A DNA stretch of 64,000 bases. Source: Actinomycetospora termitidis (lineage in GTDB: Bacteria; Actinomycetota; Actinomycetes; Mycobacteriales; Pseudonocardiaceae). The DNA lies in contig NZ_JASVWF010000007.1 of NCBI RefSeq assembly GCF_030286555.1, positions 186,001-250,000 of the forward strand, given 5' to 3'. Positions 18,340 to 61,267 of this stretch are shown here, one piece after another. The position numbers and the translations under genes are program-made. The notes beneath the pieces were generated by a model that made no database searches, was not told the origin of the DNA, and worked only from the letters and a program-made list of their open reading frames with translations. Numbering within the stretch: the stretch's first letter is position 1; the number at the start of each line of letters is the position of its first letter.

Positions 18340-18344
18340 CGGCG

Positions 18345-18413
18345 CTAGGTCGACGAATGCCGTGTGTGGTGCACAGGAAACCTGTGCACCACACACGGCG
18401 GTCGCGGACCTAG
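18345..18413. terminator. Bidirectional terminator: 18-base perfect hairpin inside a second stem
   Basis: CCGTGTGTGGTGCACAGG (18360-18377), loop AAA, then its exact complement (18381-18398). Outside it CTAGGTC (18345-18351) pairs with GACCTAG (18407-18413). It lies between the convergent MaoC and Clp-N-like genes, so it can end both transcripts. It is unusually long and perfect for a terminator. Confidence 0.8.
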
Positions 18414-18454
18414 CAGGGACGCCAGGTCTTCCCGCCCGGCGCGCAGCAATCGCC

Positions 18455-57373: not shown

Positions 57374-57709
57374 ATGACCAACCCGTTCGACGACGAGCAG
57401 GGCCGGTTCCGCGTCCTGGTCAACGACGAGGACCAGCACAGTCTGTGGCCGGTGTTCGCCGCGGTGCCCGAGGGCTGGACGGTGGTGTTCGGCGAGTGTG
57501 ACGACGGCGCGGCGCGCGCGGAGGCGGTGGCGTACGTCGAGGAGCACTGGACCGACCTCCGCCCGCGCAGCCTGCGGGAGCGGATGGCCGCAGATCGCGC
57601 CGGGTCGACCGCTGACGTCACGGGTGCTGACCCGAATGGCCCAGCAGGGCAAGAAAGCCTAGCCTCACCCGCAACGTCGTCGGCGCCGTCCGGGGGGAAC
57701 CAGGGATGA
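57374..57709 (+). CDS. mbtH: MbtH-like protein with C-terminal extension
   Basis: A 111-residue protein. Residues 1-66 are a canonical MbtH domain: [40 protein letters not shown] and [13 protein letters not shown] with the three conserved Trp. The remaining 45 residues ([20 protein letters not shown]...) are low-complexity and not seen in standard 70-residue MbtH proteins. MbtH proteins bind and activate NRPS adenylation domains. The stop overlaps the next ATG (ATGA). Confidence 0.93.
57654..57672 (-). promoter_or_regulatory. Weak iron-box-like sequence inside the MbtH extension
   Basis: On the minus strand it reads GCGGGTGAGGCTAGGCTTT. The GGTGAGGCTA core equals that of the box before the EntS-like gene, but only 11 of 19 consensus positions match. 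It precedes the siderophore-interacting protein gene by 33 bases. Confidence 0.35.
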
Positions 57710-58560
57710 CCAGCAGCGAGACCGCCGTCCACCCGTGGATCGAGAGCGCCCCGGCGCCGGTCGAGCGGGAGCTCTACGCGGTCACGCCCCGGCTGGCCGA
57801 GGTCGTGCGCGTGGTGCCGCTGACCCCGCGGATGACCCGGGTGACCCTCTCCGGGGACTTCTCCGAGCTCCTCGGGCGGGCACCGACGGACCACGTCAAG
57901 GTGTTCTTCCCGCCGGCCGGCGAGGAGCTGCCGGTGATGCCGCAGGTCGGGCCGAACGGGCTCATCCCGCCGCCGCCCGGGTCGCCGCGGCTGTTCCGCG
58001 ACTACACCCTGCGCCGGGTCGACCGGGCCGGCGGCGAGATCGACATCGACATGGTGCTGCACGCGGGCGGGCTCGGCTCCACGTGGGCGGCCGCCGCGGC
58101 ACCGGGGATGAAGGTCGGGGTGCTCGGGCCGCGGGGCTCGGAGGTCGTGGACCCGGCGCTGGACTGGCTCGTGCTGGCCGGCGACGAGACCGCGCTCCCG
58201 GCGATCGGGCGCTGGCTCGCGGAGCTGCCGTCGGCGGTGTCGGTGCGGGTCGTCGTCGAGGTGGCGGGCCCGGAGGAGGAGCAGACGCTGCCCTGTTCCG
58301 CGGACGTCGACCTGGTGTGGCTGCACCGCAACGGCATCCCGGCGGGGGAGTCGACCCTGCTCGCGGACGCCCTGGCCGGCTTCGAGTTCGAGTTCCCGAC
58401 CGGCCGTGGCTTCGTCTGGGTCGCCGGTGAGGCCGTCTCGCTGAAGCCGGTCCGCCGGATGCTGCGCAACCACCCGGCCCTGGACGCGGCGTGCGTCGAC
58501 GTGGACGGGTACTGGCGGCGTGGGGTGGTCAACCACGACCACCACGCGGCGTCGGACTGA
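57706..58560 (+). CDS. Siderophore-interacting protein (FAD/NAD(P)H ferric reductase)
   Basis: A 284-residue SIP/ViuB-type flavin reductase: [20 protein letters not shown] starts the FAD domain; [38 protein letters not shown] and [20 protein letters not shown] bind flavin; [20 protein letters not shown] and [20 protein letters not shown] form the reductase half. It releases iron from the imported ferric siderophore by reduction in the cytoplasm. Coupled to mbtH. Its TGA lies within the first palindromic element. Confidence 0.93.
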
Positions 58561-58620
58561 TCAACGAGCACCTGCGGTGGTCGGCCGGGGTGGTCGACCG
58601 TCGAGGGTGTTCGCTCGTCA
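58558..58620. repeat. Palindromic element copy 1 (degenerate)
   Basis: Left arm TGATCAACGAGCACCTGCGG is identical to the other copies; the right arm has diverged (GTGTTCGCTCGTCA). It covers both the stop of the siderophore-interacting protein gene and the stop of the convergent AbiEi-type gene, so it may also terminate both. Confidence 0.8.
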
Positions 58621-59526
58621 CAGGAGCTTCCGGCGGAACCGCTCCACCAGGCGGGCGGCGTGCCGGGGTACCGCGAGCTGGACGGGCGCGACCCGCGTGA
58701 TGTCCCAGTCGAGGTCGTCCAGGTCGCCGTCGCGCAGGCAGTCCTTGCCCTGACCGAACGGGGACCGGTGCTCCGGACCGTCGTACTCGGCGCCGACCGG
58801 ACGCCGGCCGGGTGGCGGATCGGGCCAGCCGAGGTCGAGGTGCGCGTCGAAGCCGGACTTCAGCAGGATCGGGTATTGCGTCTCCGGCCGTGGCAGCCCG
58901 GCGAGCACGAACAGCAGGCGGAGCCGGGTCTCCTGCGGAGACATCGCGCCGCCGTCCATGAACTCCGCGACCCGTCGAACCTGGACGATGCCGCGCGCCC
59001 TCGGGTGCCGTGCCGCGACCTCGAGCAGGTGCTCGGCCGTGAGGTGGCACCGCCAGGCGACGGCATCCACCGCGGCCACGGCCTCGACGAACGGGGTGCG
59101 CCGAGCGAGGTCGAAGGCGGTCCGCGCGGGCGTCGTGATGCGGGCGCCGTACCGCTCGGTGACCTCGTCGTCGGGTAGCCGGTCCACGCGTACCCGGACG
59201 CCCGCGGGTGTGATGCGCCGCGGCGTCGGCATGATCAGCTCCGCGTCGTCCCACGGGCAGTCGGCCTTCCAGGCGAGAGCAGCCAGCGGTCCGGCGATGA
59301 CGCCGACGCCGCCGCTCCACACGCTGAGCGTCTGCACCCGGAGGGCGGCCGTCTGCTCGGCGCCCGCCGCGACCCAGGTGTTCGGGGCGACGCGGAGGTA
59401 GCCGGGTCCACGGAGCTTGCCCCACGAGGTGTCGCCGGCCGCAACGGCATCCGAGGCGCGAAAGGGTTCCACACCCGCTTGGAGTGCCGGTGCGGCCGCT
59501 CGGTTCCCGCGAGTTCCGCCGGCCAT
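58618..59526 (-). CDS. AbiEi-antitoxin-like protein with DUF559/Vsr-like nuclease fold
   Basis: A 302-residue protein starting MAGGTRGNRAAAPALQAGVE. The first 110 residues (GVEPFRASDAVAAGDTSWGK, RVAPNTWVAAGAEQ) resemble the AbiEi-type winged-helix region of actinomycete proteins. The C-terminal 100 residues (SGFDAHLDLGWPDPPPGRRP, VGAEYDGPEHRSP, KDCLRDGDLDDLDWDITRVA) fit the DUF559/Vsr PD-(D/E)XK-type fold with D, E and a YDG-H signature. No AbiEii toxin partner is nearby. The gene is bracketed exactly by palindromic elements at its stop and start. It interrupts the siderophore locus. Confidence 0.82.
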   Translation of the reverse strand: MAGGTRGNRAAAPALQAGVEPFRASDAVAAGDTSWGKLRGPGYLRVAPNTWVAAGAEQTAALRVQTLSVWSGGVGVIAGPLAALAWKADCPWDDAELIMPTPRRITPAGVRVRVDRLPDDEVTERYGARITTPARTAFDLARRTPFVEAVAAVDAVAWRCHLTAEHLLEVAARHPRARGIVQVRRVAEFMDGGAMSPQETRLRLLFVLAGLPRPETQYPILLKSGFDAHLDLGWPDPPPGRRPVGAEYDGPEHRSPFGQGKDCLRDGDLDDLDWDITRVAPVQLAVPRHAARLVERFRRKLL

Positions 59527-59587
59527 GATCAACGAGCACCTGCGGCGGGGATCCGGCGGGTGGATCGCCGAGAGTGCTCGTTGATCA
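59526..59587. repeat. Palindromic element copy 2
   Basis: Perfect 14-base arms TGATCAACGAGCAC (59526-59539) and its complement (59574-59587), 62 bases in all, abutting the start codon of the AbiEi-type gene. Confidence 0.95.
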
Positions 59588-59639
59588 CCGGGAAGGGGGG
59601 CCGTGCGGTGTGCGGGGTGGGCGGACGGCGGCTGCCCCA

Positions 59640-59701
59640 TGATCAACGAGCACCTGCGGCGGGGATCCCGCGCGCGGACCGCCGCGGGTACTCGTTGATC
59701 A
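59640..59701. repeat. Palindromic element copy 3
   Basis: 62 bases; same left arm, right arm GTACTCGTTGATCA with one change from perfect pairing. The centre differs from the other copies but keeps partial self-complementarity. Confidence 0.95.
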
Positions 59702-59783
59702 TCGGCCGGGTCACGGGCCCCTGGGCCTGGGGCGGAGCGGGTGCGGCTCAGAGCGGATCGTCGGGCGGCGCGCCCCCCGACCT

Positions 59784-59845
59784 TGATCAACGAGCACCTG
59801 CGGCGGGGATCCGGCGGGTGGATCGCCGAGAGTGCTCGTTGATCA
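59784..59845. repeat. Palindromic element copy 4
   Basis: 62 bases, identical to copy 2. The 51-52 bases that follow copies 2 and 4 are also nearly identical (one G differs), so a longer block was duplicated with a 258-base offset. Confidence 0.95.
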
Positions 59846-59896
59846 CCGGGAAGGGGGCCGTGCGGTGTGCGGGGTGGGCGGACGGCGGCTGCCCCA

Positions 59897-59958
59897 TGAT
59901 CAACGAGCACCTGCGGCGGGGATCCGGCCCGCAGAGCGCCGAGGGTGCTCGTTGATCA
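59897..59958. repeat. Palindromic element copy 5
   Basis: 62 bases with perfect 14-base arms and a different centre. It is followed by the amidohydrolase gene. The region 59527-60016 holds no protein gene beyond the 19-codon frames inside the repeats. Confidence 0.95.
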
Positions 59959-60016: not shown

Positions 60017-61267
60017 ATGGGCACGACCATCGTGGGCGCGCGGGTGTTCGACGGCGAGCGGTCGCTGGGGGTGGCGACGGTCGTCGTGGACGACGCCGGG
60101 GTCATCGCGTCCGTCGACCCGGGGGAGCGAGACCCGGGCGCGGGGGAGGTCGACGGGCGCGGGCGGACCCTGCTGCCGGGGCTGATCGACGCCCACGTGC
60201 ACCTGCGCGGGGCGGGGAACCTGGGGCAGGACCTGCGCCACGGGGTCACGACCGTCCTCGACATGTTCTCCGCCCCGCCCCAGTTCACCGCGATGCTGCG
60301 CCGTCGGGCGGCCACGCGGGACGACGAGGCCGACCTGCGCAGCTCCGGGCTCATGGCCGGGGCGGTCGACGGGTGGCCGGCGGTGATGCTGCCGCCGGAC
60401 CCGAACGGCTGGCGGATGCCGGGGCTCTCGGGTCCCGACGACGCCGAGCGCTTCGTCGCCGACCGGGAGCGCGAGGGCTCGGACTACCTCAAGGTGTTCG
60501 TGGAGAACGCCGCGGACGTGAACCGCCCGACGCTGACACCGGAGACGGTCGCGGCGGTGTGCGGGGCGTCGCGGCGGCGTGGACTGCTGACCGTCGCGCA
60601 CGCGCCCACCCGGTGGGCCGCCGCCACGGCGCGGGCGGCCGGGGTGGACGTGCTGACCCACCTCCCGCTGGACGGCCCGCTCGACGACCCCGCCGGTCTG
60701 ACCGTGGTCCCGACGATGACGATGATGGCCGCCCTCACGTCGGCCGATTCCGTGCGTGAGCTGCTCGCCGACCCGCGGCTGACCGCCCGCCTCCCGGTGC
60801 CGGTCGTCCACGGTCTGGAGGCGGGCGACCGGGGCGGCCTCCCGACGTCGTCTGCCGTCGGGGCGTCCTACGAGCACGCCGCCGCGAACCTCGCACGTCT
60901 CCTGGAGGCGGGCGCGACGATCGTCGCCGGGACCGACGCGAACGACGTGCCCGGCCGGCCCGCGGCCGTGCTGCACGGCGCGTCGATGCACCTGGAGCTG
61001 GAGCTGCTGGTGCGGGCCGGGATGACGCCGGCCGACGCGCTCGCGGCGGCGACCTCGCGGGCGGCCGACGTCTTCTCCCTCCACGACCGCGGCCGGATCG
61101 CCCCCGGGCTCCGCGCCGACCTGCTGCTGGTCGACGGCGACCCGCTCGCCGACGTCACCGCGACCCGCGACCTGCGCACGGTGTGGCGACGCGGCGTCGC
61201 GCACGAGGAGTCCGACCCGGTGCGCGCGGTCGACGTCGACCAGGTGGGGGCGCCGCGCCGGCGGTGA
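60017..61267 (+). CDS. Amidohydrolase (imidazolonepropionase-like)
   Basis: A 416-residue metal-dependent hydrolase. TLLPGLIDAHVHLRGAGNLG gives the HxH metal site, EGSDYLKVFVEN the (carboxylated) Lys, LLTVAHAPTRWAAATARAAG and DVLTHLPLDGP two more His, and IVAGTDANDVPGRPA the Asp. The C-terminal small beta-sandwich ends GRIAPGLRADLLLVDGDPLA. This is the amidase/imidazolonepropionase-like subgroup. It is cytoplasmic. Its role in the siderophore locus is not clear; it may be a passenger or may recycle an acylated product. Confidence 0.9.
   Translation: MGTTIVGARVFDGERSLGVATVVVDDAGVIASVDPGERDPGAGEVDGRGRTLLPGLIDAHVHLRGAGNLGQDLRHGVTTVLDMFSAPPQFTAMLRRRAATRDDEADLRSSGLMAGAVDGWPAVMLPPDPNGWRMPGLSGPDDAERFVADREREGSDYLKVFVENAADVNRPTLTPETVAAVCGASRRRGLLTVAHAPTRWAAATARAAGVDVLTHLPLDGPLDDPAGLTVVPTMTMMAALTSADSVRELLADPRLTARLPVPVVHGLEAGDRGGLPTSSAVGASYEHAAANLARLLEAGATIVAGTDANDVPGRPAAVLHGASMHLELELLVRAGMTPADALAAATSRAADVFSLHDRGRIAPGLRADLLLVDGDPLADVTATRDLRTVWRRGVAHEESDPVRAVDVDQVGAPRRR

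Follow-up and report, generated by a model that had tools for sequence, protein, structure and literature searches.

The window analysed here is a 64,000-nt stretch of the genome of Actinomycetospora termitidis (contig NZ_JASVWF010000007.1, positions 186,001 to 250,000), in which a predicted nuclease gene (58618..59472, minus strand) lies within a set of five long palindromes. The question raised by this locus is whether the gene and the palindromes belong together and, if they do, what kind of element they form. An initial annotation had proposed a self-mobilising cassette of a new REP-nuclease type, after the repetitive extragenic palindromic (REP) elements of other bacteria, in which the nuclease might recognise or process the palindromes. 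The association of the nuclease-gene family with palindromes of its own is well supported by the comparisons described below, and we consider it moderately probable that the locus represents a REP-like system whose enzyme is an unrelated nuclease. The REP-like idea has accordingly gained strong comparative support, and the binding, cutting and copying of the palindrome by the nuclease is the part of the proposal that we infer.

The cassette and the product of its gene

The five palindromes, all given on the plus strand, start where they were initially placed. Copy 1 (58558..58620, 63 bp) takes in the stop codon of the reductase gene on its left with its first three bases (58558-58560) and, with its final three, that of the nuclease gene (58618-58620), which it had been said to cover. 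Copies 2 (59526..59587, 62 bp), 3 (59640..59701), 4 (59784..59845) and 5 (59897..59958) form an array upstream of the gene, and copy 5 is the outer boundary of the cassette. Copies 2 and 4 are identical as claimed, but the description of all five as 62-base elements with common arms needs correcting: copy 1 is the longer element just described, with the full motif in its left arm only, and copy 3 has a single mismatch in its right arm. The array does contain a duplication, but the figure of 258 bases that had been assigned to the duplicated block is the spacing of the repeats; the block itself aligns over about 177 bp, of which the first ~142 bp are identical except for one indel and the rest contains several mismatches. 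Each element consists of two inverted half-sites with the consensus start TGATCAACGAGCACCnnCGGCGG and a variable centre between them, over 62-63 bp. The arm motif TGATCAACGAGCAC has 33 matches with at most three mismatches in the window, compared to 3.25 expected, and the nine matches with at most one mismatch all lie at the cassette.

Copy 2 had been taken to abut the start codon of the gene, and it does touch an ATG at 59526 to which the open reading frame can be extended; judged from sequence, however, the gene probably starts at a GTG at 59472, about 53 bp inside the cassette from copy 2, rather than at the palindrome. This start is favoured because homologs mostly begin a few residues ahead of the PFR motif, and it is also the one picked by the gene caller; in the family as a whole, 23 of 36 upstream palindromic segments stop 35-64 nt short of the called start. 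The product is predicted to be an AbiEi-antitoxin fold fused to a nuclease resembling Vsr and the EDxHD homing endonucleases. The AbiEi fold is predicted over the N-terminal two thirds of the protein (reference PDB 6y8q), and the C-terminal part has a predicted EDxHD/Vsr-like catalytic-domain fold (reference PDB 3r3p) with the conserved acidic and histidine residues, the assignment of residues to the motif being our own reading rather than a residue-level superposition. A Pfam scan of 42 members of the family returned MTES_1575, DUF559, AbiEi_1 and one DUF5609, and no match to the Y1 HUH transposase family (PF01797).

Private palindromes of the nuclease genes

A sequence-only model built from 22 copies was used to search the 6.56-Mb draft genome containing the window (G000), in which the palindrome family of the window occupies at least 43 distinct places, none with a best E above 4.1e-6, the next place having an E of 0.026. 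The suggestion that such palindromes cluster at DUF559/AbiEi-type genes fails if it is applied to the window family alone, which is spread through the genome and which the model search (E below 1e-3) did not find within 1.5 kb of any of the six other paralogs in G000. Arm matches with three mismatches each near L037 and L040, a degenerate palindrome candidate beside L036 and a weak match (E 0.09) at ~1 kb from paralog C22 were left uncounted. Many of the paralogs and homologs that lack the window palindrome have unrelated palindromes of their own, so that enrichment must be evaluated gene by gene, and in this form it holds.

The evaluation compared the two 200-nt flanks of 61 nuclease genes from a sample of 18 Actinomycetospora genomes with those of 98 controls, drawn from the window and from the same stretches as the nuclease genes. 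An exact match of 14 nt or longer is common to both flanks in 20 of the 61 nuclease genes and in none of the 98 controls, an upstream palindrome with a score of at least 14 is present in 24 nuclease genes compared to 2 controls, and palindromes with scores of at least 11 occur on both flanks in 9 nuclease genes and 0 controls. A wider set of 83 genes (from 80 named loci and 30 further loci) with 65 controls gave 28/83 versus 0/65 for the shared exact match and 12/83 versus 1/65 for palindromes on both flanks, with examples in Actinomycetospora, Pseudonocardia, Mycobacterium, Skermania, Agromyces and Cryobacterium; the two sets are not independent, since the wider one includes Actinomycetospora genes, some of them already in the genus set. 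No close relative of the window protein was confirmed in the named genomes, from which the same or very near genomes may be omitted. Matching palindromes on both sides are found at the window gene, at its ortholog in the genome G005 and in part of the family, but not at all genes.

The placement of the palindromes bears on the possibility that the protein is an AbiEi-like autoregulator, with the upstream palindrome as its operator and the scattered copies as regulated promoters, and that no mobility is involved. AbiEi binds an imperfect palindrome (23-bp repeats separated by a 3-bp gap) immediately ahead of the gene encoding it, according to the available text of PMC3985639, and it is the upstream side that is enriched here. 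Against this, 9 of 12 downstream segments begin between -5 and +4 nt relative to the stop codon, and 11 of the 43 copies of the window family lie between convergent genes, with no bias towards promoters. The species-specific copy numbers, inversions and cassette-free sites described below also speak against a regulon, which leaves the conserved nuclease core unexplained, and we regard this possibility as unlikely.

Co-divergence was evaluated on the 36 of the 61 genes that have a palindromic segment, the 25 without one being dropped, with a score cut of 18 and identity bins that were set by us and not preregistered. Similar palindromes are found in 1 of 580 gene pairs with less than 55% protein identity, in 6 of 30 pairs at 55-65% and in 17 of 20 pairs above 65%, and the Mantel correlation between gene and palindrome (rho 0.23) was equalled or exceeded in 1 of 2000 permutations. 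When the comparison is confined to genes that occupy one and the same slot of the chromosome, palindromes are shared if the genes are similar (mean 34.5, n=18) but not if they are dissimilar (8.1, n=11). The palindromes diverge together with their genes, so that each gene clade would have a private palindrome family, and in these sequence comparisons it is the gene that the palindrome appears to track, and not the slot. If the palindromes were instead independent REP elements or miniature inverted-repeat transposable elements, moved by another enzyme and merely settling beside nuclease genes, their persistence in genomes without a close ortholog of the gene (see below) would be accounted for, but the gene-by-gene matching, the co-divergence and the shared-match counts of 0/98 and 0/65 in the controls would not; we consider this very improbable.

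The nuclease genes have a mean identity of 56.7%, compared to 85.3% for their neighbours, and are the less conserved in 146 of 150 syntenic pairs; when pairs below 50% are excluded, the means are 65.4 and 87.4, and the nuclease is lower in 104 of 108 pairs. The gene is inverted between unchanged neighbours in 12 of 72 colinear triplets and in 0 of 113 control triplets, figures that are weakened as support by the non-independence of pairs and triplets and by the origin of the 12 inverted triplets in two slots. A third inverted slot, L140, was seen in a separate comparison only. One slot, present in 14 of the 18 genomes, holds two nuclease clades that are ~33-37% identical, in either orientation and between conserved neighbours (loci L098, L145, L146, L150, L151, L164, L167-L171, L173, L178 and L180).

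Dispersal of the palindromes and sites without the cassette

Almost all copies of the window family in G000 are intergenic (41 of 43 places, the other 2 being inside a called gene), with gene ends overlapped by up to 14 nt in some cases, and five elements supply the stop codon of an adjacent gene, one of them on both sides. Twelve copies lie between divergent genes, 11 between convergent genes and 20 between tandem genes, a distribution that fits neither promoters nor terminators and for which both readings were disfavoured. In favour of ordinary transcription terminators, the four copies that were folded as single-stranded DNA form stable hairpins (z -2.8 to -6.6) and copy 1 separates convergent genes, but the family shows no preference for gene 3' ends and its primary sequence is conserved among copies. 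The hairpin-pairing positions are paired in 81.4% of cases, compared to 81.8% in shuffles, so that what is conserved is the sequence of the half-sites rather than pairing as such; there are no compensatory changes, and an RNA hairpin under compensatory selection was rejected because the paired positions carry no signal of it. That these are simply terminators is hardly credible.

In several families the outermost palindrome bases (the TGA of TGATCA, the TAG of CTAG) are often the stop codon of the adjacent gene. The sequences TGATCA and CTAGGTC are found at the stop codon where G014 and G002 lack the palindrome, and may reflect either a target preference or a footprint.

Across the genus sample, for which copy counts are lower bounds because scoring covered 150 of the ~39,000 first-look candidates in each genome and the count for G002 leaves out two matches, the window family was found in 6 of 18 genomes, with at least 43, 18, 8, 6, 1 and 1 copies. 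Homologs of the nuclease gene are present in all 18 genomes, but a close ortholog exists only in G005 (77% identical, the next best being 56%), where it is bracketed by two elements of the window family at the same spacing as in G000, 968 bp. The two gene-bearing genomes, G000 (43 copies) and G005 (18), have the highest counts, whereas those without a close ortholog have 8, 6, 1, 1 and, in twelve cases, 0, a contrast of lower bounds that involves only two gene-bearing genomes. In G002 and G009, both low-copy for the window family, nuclease homologs occur as two separate fragments and are possibly decayed (L153/L191 and L157, respectively).

Comparison of the site in related strains, which had been suggested as a check, shows that the cassette is present at the amidohydrolase gene in 2 of the 18 genomes (G000 and G005) and that cassette-free versions exist. 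In G000 its neighbours, both outside the cassette and on the plus strand, are a siderophore-interacting reductase (SIP; 57706..58560) and the amidohydrolase (60017..61267), which is found in all 18 genomes; the cassette therefore does not split a siderophore locus, as had been supposed, but follows the reductase at the edge of the locus. G005 has the order MbtH-like gene, cassette (1031 bp), amidohydrolase. In G009 the MbtH-like and amidohydrolase genes adjoin directly, the junction falling on the MbtH stop codon, and the sequence matches to either side of it, which places the limits of the cassette at the outer palindrome ends. The site in G014 also lacks the cassette, as does that in G010, where reductase and amidohydrolase are both present. 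The two carriers have different left neighbours (reductase in G000, MbtH in G005), so that the cassette may have entered either once, with losses afterwards, or on two occasions. A homing endonuclease gene would spread between alleles by cutting gene-free sites, with the palindromes as recognition or immunity sequences and their scatter as a by-product; tens of dispersed palindromes are not predicted by homing alone, and we judge this explanation improbable.

Other palindrome families are dispersed in a comparable way. The family with the arm TGATCANCAGGNSGAAANGCAC has 19 matches in 5 of the 18 genomes, 4 of which have a nuclease gene flanked by the arm. A second palindrome in the window (18344..18414, plus strand), unrelated to the first, is 71 bp long, near-perfect, has CTAG ends and is multi-copy in G000; GTGTGTGGTGCRCAGGA has 14 exact matches in G000, one of them at window position 18362, and 5 in four other genomes. 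Other copies of the 18344..18414 family lie upstream of the G000 paralog C22 and of its orthologs in two relatives. At the orthologous site this palindrome is common to G009 and absent from G002 and G014, and G005 has a different palindrome there, which resembles those around another G005 nuclease gene. In genus g5, of the same family as Actinomycetospora, an arm motif has 25, 23, 12, 11, 1 and 0 matches in six genomes, compared to 1, 1, 0, 0, 0 and 0 in as many genomes from other genera and 3 across all twelve for the backward control; the P. ammonioxydans locus L273 carries this motif, for which reason g5 is probably Pseudonocardia. Two g5 genomes, G066 and G135, have 11 and 15 nuclease-family matches, respectively.

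Several results weigh against a REP-like system. Palindromes are missing, by the criterion used, from 25 of the 61 genus genes, and downstream palindromes alone (score at least 11) are not enriched in either the genus set (12/61 versus 14/98 controls) or the wider set (25/83 versus 18/65). No compensatory covariation beyond that of shuffles was detected at the paired positions of the window family, and comparison of the sites brought no target-site duplication to light. G002 and G009 hold at least 8 and 6 copies without a close ortholog, the contrast in copy number is based on one clade, and 8 of the 15 G005 element stretches examined are homologous to G000 element stretches, so that those copies were probably inherited. 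The scatter of the window family away from the six paralogs, taken literally, belongs here as well. Finally, many family members occupy slots common to several species; free self-mobilisation of the gene, as first proposed, is unsupported, and it would be mainly the palindrome that spreads.

A possible mechanism and its relation to known systems

In the REP-like system that we favour, a single protein with an AbiEi-type DNA-binding module and an EDxHD/Vsr-type nuclease would recognise its own palindrome family, the target being two inverted half-sites over ~62 bp, present ~50 bp ahead of the gene as well as at its stop codon. The protein would nick or cut at or near the palindrome, and repair of the cut DNA from another copy could occasionally place a palindrome at a new, mostly intergenic site; the same repair might sometimes invert the gene between its palindromes, and the whole cassette would rarely be inserted or removed. 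Precedents exist for both halves of the protein. AbiEi, the antitoxin of a type IV toxin-antitoxin system, binds inverted repeats ahead of the gene that encodes it (PMC3985639; PDB 6y8q), and the EDxHD homing endonuclease I-Bth0305I forms dimers on a target almost 60 bp long (PMC3943268; PDB 3r3p), in the available text of these sources, so that a protein joining the two would be expected to bind a long palindrome. The present family resembles AbiEi in the fold of its N-terminal two thirds and in the inverted repeats upstream of the gene, but differs from the AbiE system in its extra nuclease domain and in its immediate neighbours, which at this locus, the only one scanned, are the SIP reductase and the amidohydrolase and include no AbiEii toxin gene. 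It differs from I-Bth0305I, as far as the source describes it, in the fusion to an AbiEi-like module and in its presumed target, a palindrome that is both dispersed and adjacent to the gene itself. In comparison with Vsr, TnsA and the MTES_1575-type Vsr restriction endonuclease covered in the available text of PMC3710099, no mismatch-repair or Tn7-type context was noted beside the gene.

The closest parallel is provided by the REP elements and RAYT (TnpA-REP) genes of Gammaproteobacteria (Nunvar 2010; PMC2817692, available text), which likewise combine flanking palindromes of the gene's own, co-divergence of gene and palindrome, fast evolution compared to neighbours, stable position and scattered copies; the tie between palindrome abundance and gene presence reported there can be likened to the present case on the basis of two gene-bearing genomes only. 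The differences are that the enzyme here is AbiEi-like and EDxHD/Vsr-like rather than a Y1 HUH transposase, that the palindromes are mostly ~56-80 bp long with ends such as TGATCA or CTAG, and that the hosts are Actinobacteria. Since the features match except for the enzyme, the system would work like RAYT/REP without being a member of it. Among the matches listed in open-access PMC full texts, which leave subscription papers mostly uncovered, there was no paper joining DUF559, MTES_1575 or AbiEi-like genes with dispersed palindromes.

A more specific version of this reading, for and against which we would give equal weight, is that an undescribed repeat system is widespread in Actinobacteria, in which an AbiEi-like operator binder gained an EDxHD domain and its own operator palindrome became a replicating element; this would be an equivalent of RAYT/REP that arose convergently and does without an HUH enzyme, with several private pairs of gene and palindrome in each genome and with inversion of the gene between its palindromes. 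To our knowledge, REP palindromes have so far been tied to one enzyme class, the HUH transposases related to IS200/IS605. If the REP-like reading is true, a function would be provided for a number of DUF559/AbiEi-like genes whose current annotation is unknown or antitoxin-like, the many natural gene-palindrome pairs could be used for direct tests of recognition, and the REP-like way of genome living would have arisen more than once, by means of a second, unrelated nuclease.
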